Assembly (NCBI RefSeq): GCF_000949135.2
Contig: NZ_JTAN02000003.1
Span: 62,001-126,000, forward strand
Direction of reading: 5' to 3'
Source of the DNA: Burkholderia sp. USMB20
Lineage (GTDB): Bacteria; Pseudomonadota; Gammaproteobacteria; Burkholderiales; Burkholderiaceae
DNA: 64,000 bases
A program made the translations under genes and the position numbers. Position 1 is the first letter of the stretch. Each line of letters begins with the position of its first letter. The notes beneath the pieces were generated by a model. That model worked only from the letters and a program-made list of their open reading frames with translations. It did not search any database and was not told where the DNA came from. Shown here in pieces: positions 30,193 to 42,808 of the stretch.

Positions 30193-31404
30193 TCACACCG
30201 CCGGAAACCGCTCCAGCAGCGCCGCGAACCGCGCCTCGTCCGGAAACGCCTTCACTTCATATCGCACCGGCCGGTGCGCGGTGGCCGTCATCAGGTCGCC
30301 GCACGCGTCCCGCAGCGCGGCCATCGGCACGTGCGCCGACTGCCGCGTCGCTTCCCGGTAGAGCACGACGATGTCGGTCTCGGGCAGCAGCGTCGGCACG
30401 CCGTCGCTCCACACGCTGACACTGAACAGCTCGCCGTTCTGCCGCCGATACACGGTGTAGGTCGCCACGAAGATGTCGGTGCCGTCCCGCTTGTGCAGCT
30501 CGTCCAGCTGCGTGCGCTGATCCTGGTAGTCGCCGGCGAGTTCGTCCACGCGCAGCGCGTGCAGCTTCGCCTCCAGTCCTGCCGGGATGAAGTTCCGCCA
30601 CGCGGCGCCGTCCCAGCGCAGCATCAGCGGCGGCAGCGGACGCGGCTGCGCGCGCGCGTGTTCGGCGAGTTCGACCATCGTCGCGAGCCCGGCCGTGTTG
30701 CGGTCGCCGGTGAGCAGCAGCACGGCCCGGTTCGGCGCCATCACGACCGGCGCGCCGGAGATCGGCTGGCGATGCAGCAGGTCGGTCAGCAGCAGCCGCG
30801 CCGCGTCGTAGTAGTCGCCGAACTGCGACAGGAACACGCCGTCGCGCAACGCGACCCACGGTGCCGACGACGCGCCGCGCAGGTTGTCGATCGCGATGTC
30901 GCAGGCGGCGTCGAAGCTGACGCCCCATTCGGCGAGCCGCGCACTGGTCAGCCGCGCGACGCTGAATTCGCCGTCGTACGCGATGCCGATCTCGAGGTTC
31001 TCGCACAGTGGCCGGAACGCCACCTCCGACGCTTCGGGCTGTCCGGCGAGCTGCAGCGCGACCGTGCCGCGCTCGGTCGCGCTGCGGATCACGGGGCGCA
31101 GCCGCGCGCGCACGTCCGCGAAGTTCGCCGGAATCTCGTGCTGCATCATCGCGTTCGCCTGGCGCCGCAGCGTCGCTTCGCGCTCGGTGGGCTTCGCGTC
31201 CGCGTAATCGCGGAACAGGTTGTGGAGGTTGATGATGTTCGATGGGGCATCGGCTTGCACGAGACGGCCCTTGTCGTGCTCGTGAAGCCACTCGCGCGTG
31301 TCGCCGGTCGCGCGCAGCGCGGCGATCAGGCGTTCGGCGAAGTCCTGCCGGCTGGGCGGTTTGCTGAAGCGCTCGCGCAGGCGCGCGACGAAGTCGGAAA
31401 TCAT
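30193..31404 (-). CDS. Uncharacterised protein, possibly DUF1444/YtpQ-like
   Basis: A 403-residue cytosolic protein without signal peptide or membrane helix. The N-terminal MISDFVARLRERFSKPPSRQDFAERLI, the middle SVARLTSARLAEWGVSFD with AIDNLRG, and VMAPNRAVLLLTGDRN resemble what I remember of DUF1444 (YtpQ) proteins, but that match is uncertain. It ends beside the tandem repeat and is divergent from the DUF3348 operon, from which it is separated by 493 bases. Confidence 0.72.
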   Translation of the reverse strand: MISDFVARLRERFSKPPSRQDFAERLIAALRATGDTREWLHEHDKGRLVQADAPSNIINLHNLFRDYADAKPTEREATLRRQANAMMQHEIPANFADVRARLRPVIRSATERGTVALQLAGQPEASEVAFRPLCENLEIGIAYDGEFSVARLTSARLAEWGVSFDAACDIAIDNLRGASSAPWVALRDGVFLSQFGDYYDAARLLLTDLLHRQPISGAPVVMAPNRAVLLLTGDRNTAGLATMVELAEHARAQPRPLPPLMLRWDGAAWRNFIPAGLEAKLHALRVDELAGDYQDQRTQLDELHKRDGTDIFVATYTVYRRQNGELFSVSVWSDGVPTLLPETDIVVLYREATRQSAHVPMAALRDACGDLMTATAHRPVRYEVKAFPDEARFAALLERFPAV

Positions 31405-31897: not shown

Positions 31898-32647
31898 ATG
31901 GTGCAAGCACCCCCGCGCCCGGCACTGAGCGGCCCGACGCTCGTCCGGCTGCTCGCGCGCCTGACCGATGCCGACGTCGCGGAATCCCGGCAGACGCTGT
32001 CGGACCGCCTGAGCCAGTGGCTCGGCTGGACCGACGCGATCACGCTGTCGTCCGCGCTGAATGCGAGCCCGCCCGGCGTCGCGGCCGGCGTGCGCGGTTA
32101 CGACGCCGAGCGCGACTGCGCGCGTGTGCGCCACGACCTCGCGCAGGCGATCACGGCCGCCCACCGTCCGCGTACGCGGCGGCGCCCCGGCGAAATGCCG
32201 CCGCCGCCCGCCGACACGGCGGACTTCGCGGATTTCCGCCAGAGCTGTCTGTCCCTGCAGCAGGAAATGGAAACGGCGATCGGCCAGTTGCGCGGCCGCC
32301 TGCGGGTCGCGCTGGCCGCGCGCGCGTCCGGGATGGCGCGGCTCGCGGCGCTCGACGCGATCATGGAGCGCGTGCTCGGCGCGCGCGAGCGCAGCCTGCT
32401 GTCCGCCGTGCCCGCGCTGCTCGGCACGCGCTTCGAGCGGCTGCGCGACGCGGAACGGCAGGCGCTGGCCGACGCGCAAGCGGCGGCCGCTGCCGATCCC
32501 GACGGCGACGCACCGCCCGCCGCGGCGATCGTGCCCGGCACGTGGCTCGACACGTTCCGCAACGAGATGCAAAGCATCCTGCTCGCCGAACTCGAAGTCC
32601 GGTTTCAAACGGTAGACGGGCTGCTCGCGGCCCTTCGTACCTGCTAA
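31898..32647 (+). CDS. DUF3348 domain protein
   Basis: A 249-residue, Arg/Ala-rich, mostly helical cytosolic protein. The opening SGPTLVRLLARLTDADVAESRQTLSDRLSQWL with WTDAITLSSAL matches DUF3348. It is the first gene of a four-gene unit with the DUF802, MotB/OmpA-like and DUF2894 genes, a conserved beta-proteobacterial arrangement. I start at MVQAPPRP after the -10-like element. The function is unknown; from context it may be a cytosolic partner of the motor-like complex. Confidence 0.85.
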   Translation: MVQAPPRPALSGPTLVRLLARLTDADVAESRQTLSDRLSQWLGWTDAITLSSALNASPPGVAAGVRGYDAERDCARVRHDLAQAITAAHRPRTRRRPGEMPPPPADTADFADFRQSCLSLQQEMETAIGQLRGRLRVALAARASGMARLAALDAIMERVLGARERSLLSAVPALLGTRFERLRDAERQALADAQAAAAADPDGDAPPAAAIVPGTWLDTFRNEMQSILLAELEVRFQTVDGLLAALRTC

Positions 32648-32657
32648 TCCCTACGCT

Positions 32658-35600
32658 ATGTCCAGAATTCGTCTTGATCTCGTTGTCTTCATCGCCGGCC
32701 TGCTCGCAGTGTGCTGGATCGGCGTCGGCTATGTCGCGTCGAACCCGCTCGCGACGGCCGTCACGCTGCTGATCGGCGCATGCTACGTCGCCGGCGCGTG
32801 GGAACTGTGGCGCTACCGGCAGGCGACCACCACGCTGTCGCGCGCGGTGGCCGGGCTCACCGAACCGCCGGCGCAGCTCGACACCTGGCTCGACACGCTG
32901 CCCGCGGGCCTGCGCGGCGCCGTGCGGGCGCGCGTCGAAGGCGCGCGCGTCGCGCTGCCGGGCCCGACGCTGACGCCGTATCTCGTCGGCCTGCTCGTGC
33001 TGCTCGGCATGCTCGGCACGCTGCTCGGGATGGTCGTCACGCTGAAGGGCACGGGCGCCGCGCTCGAAAGTGCGACCGACCTCGACGCGATCCGCGCGTC
33101 GCTGATCGCGCCGGTGAAGGGCCTCGGCTTCGCGTTCGGCACGTCGATCGCGGGCGTCGCGACGTCGGCGATGCTCGGCCTCCTGTCCGCGCTCGTGCGC
33201 CGCGAACGGCTCGACGCGGGCCAGCAACTCGACGCGAAGATCGCGACGACGCTGCGTGTGCATTCGTCCGCACACCAGCGCGACGAATCCTTCCGGCTAC
33301 TGCAGCGCCAGGCCGACGTGATGCCGGCCCTGGTCGACCGGCTGCAGACGATGATGACGACGCTCGAGGCGCGCAGCGTCGCGCTGCACGATCGCCAGAT
33401 CGAAAGCCAGCAGGCGTTCTTCGATCGGACCGAGCGCGCGTATGCGGGCCTGGCGTCGAATGTCGGCGATGCGCTGAAGGAAAGCGCCGCCGAAAGCGCA
33501 CGCGTGGCCGGTGCCGCGCTGCAGCCGGTCGTCGCGGCGACGATGACGGGGCTCGCGCAGGAGATGGCCGCGTTGCGCGACACCGTGACGGGCGCCGTGC
33601 AGCGTCAGCTCGACGGGCTGACCGACGGTTTCGAGAAGACCACCGGGAACGTGACGGCCGTCTGGAACCGCGCGCTCGACGAGCAGCGCCGCGCGGGCGA
33701 CGCCGTCGCGCAGCAATTGCAGACGACGCTCGGCCAGTTCACCGACACCTTCGCGCAGCGGTCGACGGACCTGCTCGACGGCGTCGCGACGCGCCTCGAA
33801 TCGACCGAAAGCCGGCTGTCCGACGCGTGGCGCGATGCGCTCGCGCGCCAGGAGCAGGTCGGCGCGACGCTGGCCGGCCAGCATGCGCAGGCGCTCGGCG
33901 AAGCTGCCGCGACCTTCGAGCGGCATTCCGGCGCGGCGCTCGCCGCGATGCGCGAGTCGCATGCGGGGCTGCAGACGCAACTGGCCGCGCGCGACGAGGA
34001 ACGCCTGGCGGCGTGGAATGCGTCGCTGACGGCGATGGCCGCGAAGCTCGGCGACGAATGGCAGCGCGCGGGCGCGCACAGCGCGGGCCGTCAGCAGGAA
34101 ATCTGCGATGCGCTGGCGCAAACGACGCGCGATCTCGCGGCACAGGCGTCTACGTTCGAACAACGTTCGAACGATTTGCTGTCCACGATCCGCGACTCGC
34201 ACACGGGGCTGCAAACGCAACTCGCGGCACGCGACGAGGAACGTCTGTCCGCATGGAACGACTCGCTCGTCGCAATGGCGACGAAGCTCGGCGACGAATG
34301 GCAGCGTGCCGGCGTGCACAGCGCGGGCCATCAGCAGGAAATCTGCGATGCGCTGGCGCAAACGACGCGCGATCTCGCGGCACAGGCGTCTACGTTCGAA
34401 CAACGTTCGAACGATCTGCTGTCGACGATTCGCGATTCGCACACGGGGCTGCAAACGCAACTGGCCGCGCGTGATGAGGAACGCCTGTCCGCATGGAACG
34501 ACTCGCTGGCCGCGATGGCGACGAAGCTCGGCGACGAGTGGCAGCGCGCGGGCGTGCACAGTGCGGGCCGTCAGCAGGAAATCTGCGACGCACTCGCACA
34601 AACGACGCGCGATCTGACCGCACAAGCAGCGACGTTCGAGCAACGTTCGAACGACCTGCTGTCGACGATTCGCGAATCGCACGCGGGCCTGCAAACGCAA
34701 CTGGCTGCACGCGACGAAGAACGCCTGTCGGCATGGAACGATTCGCTGGCCGCGATGGCTGCAAAGCTCGGCGAAGAGTGGCAGCGCGCGGGCGTACACA
34801 GCGCGGGCCGTCAGCAGGAAATCTGCGACGCGCTGGCACAGACGACGCGCGATCTGGCGGCACAAGCGTCTACGTTCGAACAACGCTCGAACGACCTGCT
34901 GTCGACGATCCGCGATTCGCACGCCGGCCTGCAAACGCAACTGGCCGCGCGCGACGAAGAACGCCTGTCCGCATGGAACGACTCGCTCGCCGCGATGGCC
35001 GCCGCGCTGCGCGACGAATTGGCGCAGACGAGCGCGCAGGCCGCGACGCGCCAGCAGGACATCTGCGACACGCTGACCCGCACCGCGAATGACATCACCG
35101 CGCAGGCGCAGGTGCATGCAAGCGACACGATCAACGAGATCTCGCGCCTCGTGCAGGCCGCATCGGAAGCGCCGAAGGCCGCGGCCGACGTCGTCGCCGA
35201 ACTGCGCCAGCGCCTGTCCGAAAGCATGGTGCGCGACACCGCGATGCTCGAGGAGCGCAGCCGCCTGCTCGCGACGCTCGAGACGCTGCTCGGCGCGGTC
35301 AATCACGCGTCGACCGAACAGCGCACCGCGATCGACGCACTCGTCAGCACGTCGGCCGACCTGCTCGAGCGCGTCGGCGCGCGCTTCAACGACACCGTCG
35401 ATGCCGAAACGCGCAAGCTCGATTCGGTCGCCGCACAGGTCACGGCGGGCGCGGTCGAGGTCGCGAGCCTCGGCGATGCGTTCGGCGCGGCCGTGCAGGT
35501 GTTCGGCGAGTCGAACGACAAGCTGCTGAACCACCTGCAACGCATCGAGGCCGCGCTCGAGAAATCGCTCGCGCGCAGCGACGAGCAGCTCGAGTACTAC

Positions 35601-35705
35601 GTCGCGCAGGCGCGCGAGGTGATCGACCTGAGCATGATGTCGCAGAAGCAGATCGTCGAGGACCTGCAGCAGATCGCCGGTCGGCGGGCATCGGTCGGAG
35701 CGTAA
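32658..35705 (+). CDS. DUF802 protein: MotA/ExbB-like membrane base with giant repetitive coiled-coil tail
   Basis: A 1015-residue protein. Four membrane helices fall at about residues 8-26, 32-50, 107-129 and 153-180; the last two (LGMLGTLLGMVVTLKGTG and FAFGTSIAGVATSAMLG) have the small-residue, Thr/Ser-lined pattern of MotA/TolQ/ExbB proton channels. The remaining ~830 residues are charged, Ala/Gln-rich and predicted helical. Residues ~434-833 hold five tandem 80-residue units. Its size and plan recall ZorA of Zorya rather than flagellar MotA. It sits between DUF3348 and the OmpA-domain partner. Confidence 0.88.
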   Translation: MSRIRLDLVVFIAGLLAVCWIGVGYVASNPLATAVTLLIGACYVAGAWELWRYRQATTTLSRAVAGLTEPPAQLDTWLDTLPAGLRGAVRARVEGARVALPGPTLTPYLVGLLVLLGMLGTLLGMVVTLKGTGAALESATDLDAIRASLIAPVKGLGFAFGTSIAGVATSAMLGLLSALVRRERLDAGQQLDAKIATTLRVHSSAHQRDESFRLLQRQADVMPALVDRLQTMMTTLEARSVALHDRQIESQQAFFDRTERAYAGLASNVGDALKESAAESARVAGAALQPVVAATMTGLAQEMAALRDTVTGAVQRQLDGLTDGFEKTTGNVTAVWNRALDEQRRAGDAVAQQLQTTLGQFTDTFAQRSTDLLDGVATRLESTESRLSDAWRDALARQEQVGATLAGQHAQALGEAAATFERHSGAALAAMRESHAGLQTQLAARDEERLAAWNASLTAMAAKLGDEWQRAGAHSAGRQQEICDALAQTTRDLAAQASTFEQRSNDLLSTIRDSHTGLQTQLAARDEERLSAWNDSLVAMATKLGDEWQRAGVHSAGHQQEICDALAQTTRDLAAQASTFEQRSNDLLSTIRDSHTGLQTQLAARDEERLSAWNDSLAAMATKLGDEWQRAGVHSAGRQQEICDALAQTTRDLTAQAATFEQRSNDLLSTIRESHAGLQTQLAARDEERLSAWNDSLAAMAAKLGEEWQRAGVHSAGRQQEICDALAQTTRDLAAQASTFEQRSNDLLSTIRDSHAGLQTQLAARDEERLSAWNDSLAAMAAALRDELAQTSAQAATRQQDICDTLTRTANDITAQAQVHASDTINEISRLVQAASEAPKAAADVVAELRQRLSESMVRDTAMLEERSRLLATLETLLGAVNHASTEQRTAIDALVSTSADLLERVGARFNDTVDAETRKLDSVAAQVTAGAVEVASLGDAFGAAVQVFGESNDKLLNHLQRIEAALEKSLARSDEQLEYYVAQAREVIDLSMMSQKQIVEDLQQIAGRRASVGA
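33957..35156 (+). repeat. Five exact 240-bp (80-residue) tandem units inside the DUF802 gene
   Basis: Units begin at 33957, 34197, 34437, 34677 and 34917, each opening with SH[AT]GLQTQLAARDEER and containing QQEICDALAQTTRDL and FEQRSNDLLSTIR. Units 2-4 are nearly identical at the DNA level, while the first and last are diverged. All units keep frame and exactly the same length. Confidence 0.93.
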
Positions 35706-35708
35706 CGC

Positions 35709-36353
35709 ATGCACGACGAAATCGACGACGGCGCGCCTTCCGCGCCGGTGTGGCCCGCGTTCGCCGACCTGATGTCGGTGCTGCTCGGCGCATTCGTGCT
35801 GGTCCTCGTCGGCGTGATCGGCATGCAGTTGCAGCTCACGTCGAAGCTCGAGGAAGCGGTGCGGGCGCGCCAGCAGGAAGCGCAGCAGCGCAAGTCGCTC
35901 GAGGAGGCGCTGGCCGGGCCGCTCGCGGCCGGCCGCGTGACGCTCGTGAACGGCCGCATCGGCATCAGCGGCAACGTGCTGTTCGCGCTGAACTCCGACC
36001 AGTTGCAGCCCGAGGGCCGCGATCTGCTGAAGACGCTGGCTGCGCCGCTGGCCGCCTACCTGAAGACGCGCGACGAGATCCTGATGATCAGCGGCTTCGC
36101 CGACGACCAGCAGGTGCGCGCCGGCAACCGCCAGTTCGCGGACAACTGGGAACTGTCGGCCAAGCGCGCGCTGACGGTCACGCGTGCGCTGATCGACGCC
36201 GGCGTGCCGGCCAAGTCGGTGTTCGCGGCTGCGTTCGGCTCCGAGCAGCCGGTCAGCTCGAATGCGGACGATGAAGGTCGCGCGAAGAACCGTCGCGTGG
36301 AGATCGCGCCGGTGCCGCGCAAGACCGCATCGAGCGGAGGGAAGGCGAAGTGA
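35709..36353 (+). CDS. MotB/ZorB-like protein with OmpA peptidoglycan-binding domain
   Basis: A 214-residue protein. A short cytosolic N-terminus leads into a single membrane helix (residues ~16-38) that begins PAFADLMSVLLGAFVL; Asp20 occupies the place of the proton-carrying Asp of MotB and ZorB. A charged helix follows, then an OmpA-family domain (~90-200) with ISGFADDQ, ELSAKRALTVTRAL and the C-terminal KNRRVEI motif that binds peptidoglycan. It starts 3 bases after the DUF802 stop, and its own stop overlaps the DUF2894 start, so a stoichiometric complex is likely. Confidence 0.9.
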   Translation: MHDEIDDGAPSAPVWPAFADLMSVLLGAFVLVLVGVIGMQLQLTSKLEEAVRARQQEAQQRKSLEEALAGPLAAGRVTLVNGRIGISGNVLFALNSDQLQPEGRDLLKTLAAPLAAYLKTRDEILMISGFADDQQVRAGNRQFADNWELSAKRALTVTRALIDAGVPAKSVFAAAFGSEQPVSSNADDEGRAKNRRVEIAPVPRKTASSGGKAK

Positions 36354-36966
36354 CGGACGACGCGACGCACGTGCGCGCGACGCTCGACGCATGGCGCGAG
36401 CAGGCGCCGCCGGCTCGATCCGGTGCGCTTCCTCGGCTCGACGCGCTCGAGAAGGCGCGGGCGCGCTCGACGCGTTGCGCCGCGTTGCTCGATGCGCGGC
36501 TCGCGATGTGCTGGAAGGTTTGCGCAGATCGTCGCGAGCGGTGAAGCGGCAGCCGCCGGCTCGCGGCAAGGCGAGCGCAGGCGCCTGCGCGTGGATGCGA
36601 TCGGCGGCCGTCGAGCGCCTCGCGCGCGATGCACAGCCGACGGGCGGGATCGATCCCGCGCTGATCGACTACTTCCGCGCGATGTGGTCGAAGGTCCGCA
36701 CCGAACAGCAGTATCGCCAGTCGCTCGACCAGGTGCCGCGCAACGCGGGACCGCTCAATTCGAACAGCCTCGTGCACCGGTCGCTCGCGACGATGCGCGA
36801 GCTGTCGCCGGAATACCTGCAGCAGTTCCTGTCGTACATCGATGCGCTGGCATGGCTCGAGGATCTGGCCGGCGGCGGCGCGCAGCCGGAGAAGGAGGCG
36901 CCGCGCGCGAAAGCCGCGAAGACGCTGAAACCGGCGAAGAAGACCACGCGCACCAAGGCGCGATAA
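36350..36966 (+). pseudogene. DUF2894 gene, reading frame broken in this sequence
   Basis: The start codon overlaps the OmpA-gene stop (ATGA) and reads RATLDAWREQ, but the frame stops at 36542-36544. The conserved C-terminal part (MWSKVRTEQQYRQSL, NSNSLVHRSLATMREL, YLQQFLSYIDALAWL) is intact in another frame and ends at 36966. In between, the family-like pieces RLDPVRF (36411) and ASGEAAAAGSR lie in the third frame, so at least three indels separate the parts. Either the gene is decayed or the assembly is wrong here. Family members are cytosolic, of unknown function, and encoded with DUF3348/DUF802. Confidence 0.7.
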
Positions 36967-40291: not shown

Positions 40292-42439
40292 TTACTTCTT
40301 CGGGGCGGTGCCGAGCAGGCCGCCGAGCAGGTTCGTCACCGGTGCCAGCAGGTTGGTCGCGCCAGCCGCGGTGCCGCCGTTCGAACTGCCGGTCAGGCCG
40401 GCCGTGACGGTGCCGCTGCCGGACGGCGTCGTCACCGTGCCGGCCGCGCCGCCCGGGCTGGCCGTGCCGACTGCGCCGAGCGTGCCGGCCGCCGACGTCA
40501 GCGAGCCCGTCAGCGTGCCGACCGGGCCGTTCGTCAGCGCACCGCCGAGGTTGCCGGTCAGGTTGCCGCCCGGCGTCGTGACCGTGCCGGTGAGGCTCGC
40601 GCCAAGCGGCGTCAGCGAGTTGACGAGGCCGGTGACCGGTGCCAGCAGGCTGCCGGTGCCCGAGCTGCTGGTACCGCTCGTGCCGCTGGTGCCGCTCGTA
40701 CCGCTCGAACCGAGGCCGCCGAGGGCGCCCGTCACCGTGCCGAGCAGGCCCGTGATCGGCGCGAGCGGGCCGCCGCTGGTGCCGCTCGTCCCGCTGGTGC
40801 CGCCGGAGCCGCTCGAACTGCTGCCGCCGCCGAGGGCGCCCGTCAGCGAACCGAGCACGCCCGTGATCGGGGCGAGCGGGTTGGTGCCGCTGCTGGAACT
40901 GCCGCTGGACAGCAGGCCGCCGGTCGACGACACCGTGTTGCCGAGCTGGGACACGCTGCCGCCCGCGCTCGTGCCGACCGGGTTGCCGGTCGCGTTGCCG
41001 ACCTGCGTACCGGCGAGGCCGAGGCCGCTGCCGAGCGTGTTCAGCAGGCCGCTGAGCGGGGCGCCGAGCAGGGTCGCGTTGCCGAGCGTCTGCGTGGCGC
41101 CAGGCGTCGTGACGCCGCCGGTCAGCGTGTTGGTGATCGGGTTGATCACGCTGCCGAGTTGCGTCTCGAGTTGCTGGACCGGCGCGCTGTTCAGCGCCGT
41201 GTTGAGCGCCGATGCGGTGGAGTTGACCGCGGTGCCGACCGTGTTGACGAGACTGCCGACCAGGGTCGTCGCCGGCGCGAGCGGCGCCAGCGGACCGGTG
41301 CCGAGGCTCGTCACCGCGTTGCCGAGGTTGTTGACGGCGCCGCCGGCGCCGGTCAGCAGGCCGGTGGTCGACGTGAGCGTCGGGCCGAGCGGGTTCGGCG
41401 ACACGCCGATCGAGCCAAGGCCGGCCGCGACGCCGTTGCCGAGCGACTGCACGCCGCTGCCGAGGCTGGTGACCGCATTGCCGATGCTGGTGGCCGTCGT
41501 CGGGTTCGTGCCGGGGACCTGTACGCCGCCGATCTGCGACCCGCCGTTCGCGACCGTCGTGCCCAGTGCCGTGACGAGCGTGCCGGTTTGCTGGAGGACG
41601 TTGCCCAGCGGGGTGGCGCTGGTGCCGGAGGTGCCTGAAGTACCGGAAGTGCCCGACGTGCCGGACGTGCCCGAGGTGCCGGACGTGCCCGAGGTGCCCG
41701 AGGTGCCCGAGGTGCCCGAGGTGCCCGAGGTGCCGGAAGTGCCCGAGGTGCCGGAGGTGCCGGAGGTGCCGGAAGTGCCCGAGGTGCCGGAGGTGCCGGA
41801 GGTGCCCGACGTACCGGAGGTGCCCGACGTGCCGGAAGTGCCTGACGTACCGGAAGTGCCCGACGTGCCGGAAGTGCCGGAAGTGCCGGAAGTGCCGGAA
41901 GTGCCCGAGGTGCCGGAGGTGCCGGAGGTGCCCGACGTGCCCGAGGTGCCCGACGTGCCGGAAGTGCCGGAAGTGCCGGAAGTGCCGGAAGTGCCGGAAG
42001 TGCCGGAAGTGCCGGAAGTGCCGGAAGTGCCCGAGGTGCCCGAGGTGCCGGAAGTGCCCGACGTGCCGGAGGTGCCCGACGTACCGGAAGTGCCCGACGT
42101 GCCGGAGGTGCCCGACGTACCGGAAGTGCCCGACGTGCCGGAAGTACCCGACGTGCCGGAAGTACCCGAAGTACCGGAAGTACCCGACGTACCGGAGGTG
42201 CCCGAAGTACCGGAGGTGCCCGACGTACCCGAAGTCCCCGACGAACCCGACGTCCCCGAACTACCGCCGCCGGACGTACCCGACGAGCCGCCGCCGGAAG
42301 TCCCCGAAGTCCCCGAAGTCCCGGACGTGCTCGGCTTGATCGACGGCGTGACCGGCCCGTCGACCGAGCCGCAGCCATACAGCGAGAGCAGCGACAGGAC
42401 GGCCAGCGATACCGTCGTCTTCTTTAAGTAATGGTGCAT
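40292..42439 (-). CDS. Collagen-like lipoprotein with long Gly-Thr-Ser repeat
   Basis: A 715-residue surface-type lipoprotein. The signal peptide [23 protein letters not shown] ends in a lipobox, with Cys23 lipidated. After a short linker comes a Gly-Thr-Ser triplet region (residues ~35-275), then a ~440-residue C-terminal domain rich in Gly, Leu, Asn, Thr and Ser with recurring LAPITGLLG / PLAPVTGL and LGNAVTSLG motifs. Gly-x-y triplets of this kind occur in Burkholderia collagen-like (Bucl) proteins and could form a triple helix. Repeat number is likely to vary between strains. Confidence 0.85.
41618..42238 (-). repeat. 69 uninterrupted 9-bp units encoding Gly-Thr-Ser
   Basis: Each 9-base unit encodes one GTS triplet with scattered synonymous third-base changes. 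The run spans 621 bases, bounded by a GSS triplet on the N-terminal side and GTSATP on the other. Further short GTS and GGGSS blocks lie beyond it on the N-terminal side, and two shorter GTS clusters occur near 40670-40710 and 40770-40800. Confidence 0.9.
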
Positions 42440-42808
42440 GGTGGCCTCGACATTGGAAGTTGTGTCCGGGCCATTACTGCAAATTCCGCGCCATGACATC
42501 TTCCGCGCAATGCGCCGGCGCTTTGTTGCGGGAATCGGGAATATCGGCGCGATTTAAACGGAGGAATGGGGGTTTCGCGGGACGGGCGCGCCGGTTGCGC
42601 CGCTGTGCGCGCCGTGATGTTCCCGTAAGGTGCCGTAACGCCGGGCTGGATGTTACGTAGCGTTCGGCCCGGTGTTCCGCGTGTGACGCAGCCGGCCGCG
42701 CCCCGAGGGCACGGTCTTTGACGAAACGCCCACGCGCCGCGAACATGACGCGAACCCACCCGGCCGCAGGCGACGCCGAAGCGGCCACGACTTCAGACAG
42801 GACACGAC
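42440..42808. other. Intergenic region between the collagen-like lipoprotein and the CMD gene
   Basis: About 370 bases between divergent genes, with AT-richer patches near 42480 and 42545 (ATTTAAAC) that may hold the lipoprotein promoter. No operator-like palindrome or coding frame stands out. Confidence 0.45.

Follow-up and report, generated by a model that had tools for sequence, protein, structure and literature searches.

Four plus-strand genes occupy positions 31898-36966 of the window, i.e., the whole 64-kb stretch of DNA analysed here, and its reading frames assign them, in this order, to a DUF3348 protein, a ZorA/DUF802 protein, an OmpA protein and a DUF2894 protein (Table 1). The proteins of the unit match the corresponding Pfam families with E-values of 2.5e-87, 5.9e-26, 2.7e-19 and 7.4e-35, respectively. 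Moreover, since the PADLOC models of Zorya type III match each of the four genes (ZorA3, E 0; ZorB3, 5.6e-115; ZorG3, 4.1e-97; ZorF3, 2.2e-49), we consider it practically certain that the region is a Zorya type III operon. The PADLOC models of ZorC, ZorD and ZorE found no match among the four proteins of the unit and the 44 other proteins called in the window. An earlier note on this DNA had recognised a ZorAB-type motor in which DUF3348 and DUF2894 replace ZorC/D/E, which holds, and had taken it for a related motor with no name of its own, which does not, this being the named and tested type III. The four-gene unit that it described is complete in gene content, with the correction that the DUF2894 frame is broken in its 5′ half and that the start of the open reading frame listed for it is wrong.

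Table 1. Features of the Zorya type III operon, in window coordinates.
Feature	Position	Strand	Evidence
DUF3348 protein, 249 aa; ZorG3 (PADLOC-DB 2.0) / ZorF (2021 paper text)	31898..32647	+	PF11828 2.5e-87, PDLC00658 4.1e-97
ZorA3, 1015 aa: four-helix MotA-like base (1-180) and 835-residue tail, probably cytoplasmic and helical	32658..35705	+	PDLC00649 E 0
Third and fourth membrane helices of ZorA3, residues 109-180; candidate polar ring	32982..33197	+	Invariant Thr/Ser, 8VVN chain C alignment
Tandem repeats of 240 bp (80 aa) in the tail of ZorA3, 4.4 copies	33946..34999	+	Tandem repeat
Conserved distal tail of ZorA3, last 230 residues	35013..35702	+	Identity to 42 relatives
ZorB3, 214 aa: one membrane helix with Asp20 and OmpA peptidoglycan-binding domain	35709..36353	+	PDLC00651 5.6e-115
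DUF2894 gene, ZorF3 in PADLOC-DB 2.0; 5′ end of listed ORF differs from the true frame	36262..36966	+	PDLC00652 2.2e-49

The same order, with all four genes, is found in 57 of the 58 loci fetched, so that the grouping is not due to chance; in the remaining one (L083) the DUF3348 query found no match, yet immediately upstream of ZorA the Pfam model does find one. According to the portion of PMC8565338 at hand, Zorya type III was named in 2021, its operon cuts plaquing in E. coli, and the type is defined by the presence of its genes. Because the definition rests on gene presence, the broken DUF2894 frame, which leaves the window copy short of four intact frames, bears on function and not on membership. 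The names ZorF and ZorG are swapped between sources, which constitutes an annotation trap: in the same portion of PMC8565338, DUF3348 is ZorF and DUF2894 is ZorG, and PADLOC-DB 2.0 has the opposite. The genome that hosts the operon appears to be Burkholderia cepacia-complex-like, given that its ZorB is 97-98% identical to that of cepacia-type strains (Burkholderia sp. Bp9142 and Bp9143, B. territorii, Burkholderia sp. Nafp2/4-1b and B. ambifaria).

ZorA3 has four hydrophobic stretches, near residues 8-26, 30-48, 109-127 and 162-180, followed by 835 residues among which there are only three prolines, as expected from the four N-terminal helices and the long helical tail of about 830 residues that had been claimed at the outset. 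The base is MotA-like, as the earlier note had it, but the Pfam family DUF802 does not describe it: the best stretch of that model covers residues 321-373, a segment of the tail. The charges of the loops (K+R and D+E) are 0 and 0 in the first outer loop, 7 and 5 in the inner one, 2 and 3 in the second outer one, and 9 and 7 after helix 4. Since they follow the inside-positive order, the tail is expected to be cytoplasmic, and the periplasmic placement that had been set out as the topology at odds with a motor is not the one indicated. Furthermore, T121, T128, T162, S163 and S170 of ZorA are invariant in 43 of 43 sequences, and also in the 30 of a further set. The next gene, which starts 3 bases on and had been correctly described as encoding a one-helix protein with an OmpA domain, carries within the motif FADLMSVLLG the aspartate Asp20, invariant in all 43 ZorB sequences, and its product has a predicted OmpA peptidoglycan-binding domain. 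Both hallmarks of a ZorAB motor, the aspartate in the helix of ZorB and the Thr/Ser residues in helices 3 and 4 of ZorA, are thus found here.

With residues 1-215 of ZorA as the query, the best match of the motor core in the PDB is 8VVN chain C (E 7.4e-5, residues 110-183), which the available part of PMC11890865 gives as the type I ZorAB of Shewanella sp. ANA-3; the likeness of the base to a solved structure, which had been proposed as a check, is therefore observed at the sequence level. A search with residues 1-360 returned only two matches, FD15 and apolipoprotein A-IV, both in the helical part of the tail. Profile-profile comparisons of the base, also proposed at that time, gave low probabilities throughout: 32 (E 5e-4, 81 columns) against a type I ZorA-like profile made of two sequences, both sub-threshold matches of the search for type I ZorA in Burkholderia; a negligible 0.9 against MotA; and 32 against TolQ/ExbB, in this case for a motif of 19 residues only. 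PF01618 (MotA/TolQ/ExbB) found no match in the proteins of the unit at E 0.1.

The tandem array within the tail of ZorA3 (Table 1) had gone unmentioned in the earlier note. In a sample of 135 ZorA genes, 122 of them distinct (some genomes occur twice), the distinct genes encode proteins of 555 to 1220 aa, with 49 different lengths. A tandem array is present in 76 of them and absent from 46, and in every case the unit length in bases is divisible by three (240 bp in 29 genes, 261 in 20, 153 in 7, 207 in 4, others being rarer), i.e., lineage-specific units of 80, 87, 51, 69 and 98 aa, among others. The commonest short form, at 698 aa, accounts for 17 of the 122 distinct genes. In the cepacia-type clade the protein steps through 775, 855, 935 and 1015 aa, and Paraburkholderia presents 698, 785, 872 (or 871) and 959 aa; lengths off this second ladder, e.g., 627, 737, 855 and 1155, accompany the unit of 51 aa. 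The second ladder extends to 1046 aa in Burkholderia sp. SRS-W-2-2016, a strain that clusters with P. sejongensis. The longest ZorA (L059, 1220 aa) contains 6.2 copies of the 87-aa unit at 94% matches and seems to have expanded recently. At least 51 changes of length are needed on a tree of 81 rows. Near-finished assemblies vary as well, with 935 aa in G010 (2 contigs) and G041 (3 contigs), 855 in G065 (4 contigs) and 1015 in G013 (3 contigs), which means that the collapse of repeats during assembly is not the whole cause.

Expressed in helical turns, units of 80, 87, 51, 69, 98, 113 and 131 aa correspond to 22, 24, 14, 19, 27, 31 and 36 whole turns. At a fitted period of 3.636 residues per turn, 75 of the 76 array genes fall within 0.1 turn of a whole number, against about one fifth of arbitrary lengths, a count that spans related genes rather than 76 independent cases, so that the test on unit lengths is the fairer one. 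In that test, for which nine units were chosen by hand (29 and 58 aa being counted under 87, and 33 and 44 under 22), only 3 of 100,000 random sets, each with its own best period between 3.5 and 3.8, did as well as these units do at the fitted period of about 3.64; the figure is 68 in 100,000 for the five main units and 6 in 100,000 for eight. At 3.67, the period of 29 repeat-free tails, nothing sets these units apart, since 21,832 of 200,000 random sets are as good. The array regions of 96 tails have their periodicity peak at 3.635-3.64, where it must be considered that a tandem array necessarily peaks at a fraction of its own unit. The whole-turn rule is, in short, strong with the fitted period and not significant with that of the repeat-free tails.

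Conservation along the tail is U-shaped, high at the motor, dropping toward the array and rising again at the distal tip. Averaged over 42 relatives, of which 8 are close, the identity of the window ZorA is 0.88 for residues 101-180, 0.65 for 181-260, 0.62 for 261-340 and 0.49 for 341-430; along its last 260 residues it passes through 0.57, 0.74, 0.71, 0.83 and 0.68, with 83% at residues 181-240 of that segment. A helix rises by 1.5 Angstrom per residue, and one step of 80 aa would change the rod by about 12 nm. We tentatively propose that the tail may be a tunable rod, in which blocks of whole turns are gained or lost while the register is kept, and that the tip, and not the middle, may contact both partners.

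As to these partners, no Pfam enzyme domain was found in DUF3348 or DUF2894. Sequence searches of the PDB returned nothing with the DUF3348 profile and a single chance-level match (E 0.074) with that of DUF2894. The C-terminal tail of DUF2894 is rich in Lys/Arg, and a relative's DUF2894 has a sub-threshold similarity to KfrA_N (0.0013), features that are at most a hint of a putative contact with nucleic acids. Two further genomes (G422 and G292, at L084 and L085) contain a weak DUF3348-like stretch within larger frames of 460 and 453 aa; no Zor genes were found near either of them and both were left out of the locus set, and these stretches possibly belong to a wider DUF3348 family.

The 5:2 stoichiometry of the ZorAB motor is established for types I and II. 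By extension, five ZorA and two ZorB subunits would form an ion-driven motor also in type III, a mechanism that the analogy makes quite probable. At the site of envelope disturbance by an injecting phage, ZorB would anchor the motor to peptidoglycan, the flow of ions would make ZorA turn or rearrange, and the tail, as a helical rod, would carry the signal to the cytosol. To these steps, taken from types I and II, we add two of our own: the conserved distal tip may be the output end at which DUF3348 and/or DUF2894 dock, which we hold at somewhat less than even odds, and the repeat array would be a spacer between motor and tip, free to change in length provided that the helix register is kept. 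In the part of PMC11890865 available, the ZorA tail, the binding of peptidoglycan and the flow of ions are reported as important for defence by types I and II.

The DUF3348 marker occurs in 64 of 65 Burkholderia genomes, with one match in each (partial in G051). Every one of the 64 genomes that reach 90% completeness or more with 5% contamination or less has it, and none of the four genes is missing from the 30 Burkholderia loci fetched. In the same 65 genomes, two yardsticks behave otherwise: HsdR is over the cut-off in 27 (28 at E 0.001), and type I ZorA in none at the strict cut-off, with three full-length matches below it. Beyond the genus, in a sample of 249 genomes of the family, ZorB3 was counted in 31 of 31 members of genus g1, 26 of 29 in g3, 25 of 30 in g10, 29 of 30 in g11, 24 of 29 in g20, 15 of 16 in g24, 10 of 11 in g25 and 0 of 30 in g12, whose genomes measure 1.7-2.2 Mb. 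These are counts made by hand, in the larger genera only, of matches under 1e-60, the raw tally of 244 of 249 including other OmpA proteins. The DUF3348 marker is over the cut-off in 7 of 200 genomes of the order sample and in 7 of 274 of the class sample, the nearest compared genome (G001) being included. In PLSDB, 27 of 72,556 replicons match, those among the 20 matches listed measuring 0.59 to 3.5 Mb, and the sole phage match is a partial OmpA match of 33%.

Within the window, the operon is flanked by genes for a LysE-type transporter, an FMN reductase, a 234-aa protein and an ICMT-type membrane protein. At least three of these four genes, at 40% identity or more, are found in 24 of the 30 Burkholderia loci, and none of them in the other six or in the 28 loci of other genera. 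A neighbouring gene of 403 aa on the minus strand (30193-31404), with only a sub-threshold match to DUF1444, lies beside the operon in some but not all of the close Burkholderia relatives, where its identity is 75-94%. On the same strand, 40292-42499 encodes a large protein that combines a bacterial collagen middle domain with repeats of the collagen triple helix (PF15984 6e-53, PF01391 6.2e-21). The defence island that had been suggested as something to look for is not seen in the window, where the only PADLOC model matched at 1e-5 is mads_2, by two of the 44 other called proteins (best 6.2e-18).

Outside the clade, 120 flanking proteins from 12 loci were surveyed (out of 173 called in 16 loci), and 50 PADLOC models found a match among them. 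The best 25 of these 50 include three mads models with two proteins each and, with one protein per model, a strong AbiEii (1.3e-122), DpdJ, BrxHI and SngC; at least one defence gene accordingly lies near one of the 12 loci. A helicase-type match is also seen near Zorya III in these flanks, besides the AbiEii-type gene. Among the first 25 of 162 Pfam families of the flanks, the commonest are metabolic and regulatory. A fifth conserved gene was sought by comparing all against all the 3609 flanking reading frames of at least 100 aa within 7 kb, and no family of same-side neighbours recurred in more than five genera; the top two families are, as we take it from their sequences, an ABC transporter ATPase and a short-chain dehydrogenase.

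Regarding inheritance, ZorAB and rpoB distances correlate in 29 genomes (Spearman 0.72, with none of 2000 permutations as high) and, within the family, in 24 genomes (0.46, 3 of 2000 permutations), but the two trees have only 6 of 26 splits in common. Three rpoB clades, picked after the trees had been seen, were submitted to the AU test with the ZorAB data: the monophyly of the seven Burkholderia rows is not rejected (p-AU 0.216), nor is the g25 clade of two rows (p-AU 0.299), and the clade of g24 plus g3 is rejected (p-AU 3e-5). The free ZorAB tree does not unite the seven Burkholderia rows. G157 was excluded from the comparison on account of its split rpoB; at this locus (L213) rpoB is split by a stop or a change of frame, probably a sequence error. 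Our reading is that inheritance within Burkholderia would be largely vertical and that, further back in time, the genes would have been exchanged between genera at least once. A recent transfer into Rhodanobacteraceae is unsupported, the three copies forming one clade with two genomes of the same class (support 99).

Taken as a whole, the best explanation, to which we give a probability of roughly three in four, is that of a Zorya type III anti-phage operon whose ion-driven motor would pass a signal along its tail to the cytosol, where the tip would serve for docking. It is favoured by the PADLOC matches, the gene order, the invariant motor residues, the match to 8VVN, the U-shaped conservation and the defence observed in E. 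coli, where, according to the part of PMC8565338 at hand, the operon of Stenotrophomonas nitritireducens protects strain BL21-AI heterologously. It is weakened by the lack of a defence neighbourhood in the window, the weak profile match, the broken DUF2894 and a negative screen. The latter is found in the available portion of PMC12584637, which places Zorya I and III in B. cenocepacia K56-2 and reports that the first one or two genes of the operon change expression on infection, and that the knock-down of predicted defence genes had no fitness effect during infection by Bcep176, a result for which the reasons offered by the authors include inactivity against this phage and weak knock-down. As for other hosts, a Variovorax strain has type III in its defence repertoire according to the excerpt at hand of PMC11953036, and that of PMC9148166 describes Xylella with homologues of ZorA and ZorD only, i.e., no full system.

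A marker that is near-universal in Burkholderia, with one neighbourhood in 24 of 30 loci, is unusual for a defence system. One way of accommodating this, which is a refinement of the best explanation and not its opposite, is a defence system that became fixed in Burkholderia, being old, mostly vertical within the genus, constitutive and not borne on an island. Prevalence, the shared site, the admissible monophyly of the seven rows and the protection of E. coli (PMC8565338, in the part consulted) all speak for it. The free tree that splits those rows and the six Burkholderia loci devoid of the shared flanks, which point to repeated entry or to a relocation, speak against it, as does the negative result of the one native-host screen in the published material consulted (PMC12584637); it falls only slightly short of an even bet.

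A second reading departs from defence: the operon would encode a core envelope motor of the Burkholderiaceae, TolQR- or MotAB-like in its job, and its defensive appearance would come only from over-expression in E. coli. The contrast between 64 of 65 genomes for DUF3348 and the counts of HsdR and type I ZorA suits it, as do the single neighbourhood in most Burkholderia loci, the large size of the PLSDB replicons listed together with the merely partial phage match, and the lack of a native phenotype with one phage in the portion of PMC12584637 available. Nevertheless, the operon is absent from most of the order and of the class, ZorB3 is missing from some members in six of the seven larger counted genera that have it, the flanks differ in six Burkholderia and all 28 non-Burkholderia loci, the ZorAB and rpoB trees conflict, with one of three clades rejected, and the Stenotrophomonas operon does protect E. 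coli (PMC8565338, same portion), all of which makes a core motor unlikely.

The DUF2894 frame break, for its part, looks like a local sequence-quality problem; the 3′ half of the gene is open in the window copy. That the system of this strain is dead, with DUF2894 truly frame-broken, is suggested by many small indels with respect to the nearest compared genome, all gathered within some 240 bp (at about 36.40-36.65 kb), and by the fact that each of the 42 relatives checked keeps the gene as a single open frame, but it is improbable, as the remaining three genes are open and conserved and single-base losses packed in a short GC-rich stretch would resemble a low-quality consensus more than decay.

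Returning to the Zorya type III anti-phage motor, the operon shares with the system described in the portion of PMC8565338 at hand the same four genes, order and domains (PADLOC models at E 2.2e-49 or better), and the window copy differs from it in the broken 5′ half of DUF2894 and in a ZorA that, at 1015 aa, exceeds the commonest short form of 698. Like types I and II, it has a MotA-like base, Thr/Ser residues in helices 3 and 4, the aspartate of ZorB, a peptidoglycan-binding domain and a long, probably cytoplasmic tail; unlike them, it lacks ZorC, ZorD and ZorE, and its partners have no recognisable nuclease or helicase. Moreover, type III ZorA varies in length by repeats, whereas in types I and II, following the available part of PMC11890865, component size is well conserved in each family. 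The plan of the membrane motor is also that of flagellar MotAB, TolQR and ExbBD, with an OmpA domain on ZorB3 as in MotB; the sequences differ, in that PF01618 is not reached and neither the MotA nor the TolQ/ExbB comparison rises above the low probabilities given above.

Zorya type III itself is already known and its presence in Burkholderia already published, and as the discovery of a system the case is ordinary. Its interest lies in the tail ladder and in the near-fixation in Burkholderia: the former, with its near-whole-turn blocks of ZorA3, and the near-universality of the marker in the Burkholderia genomes checked look unreported, no earlier mention of tail repeats or of core status having been found in the portions of the open-access literature consulted.

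The near-universality raises the question of whether some of the systems filed under defence are partly core envelope biology. In turn, type III would put two small partners in the place of nucleases in the signalling of phage attack from envelope to cytosol, and would represent the same motor with a tail that evolved to many lengths, apparently keeping its register, so that the length of the rod, its register and its tip would be separable. If the rod is indeed tunable, the natural relatives would constitute a ready-made length series.
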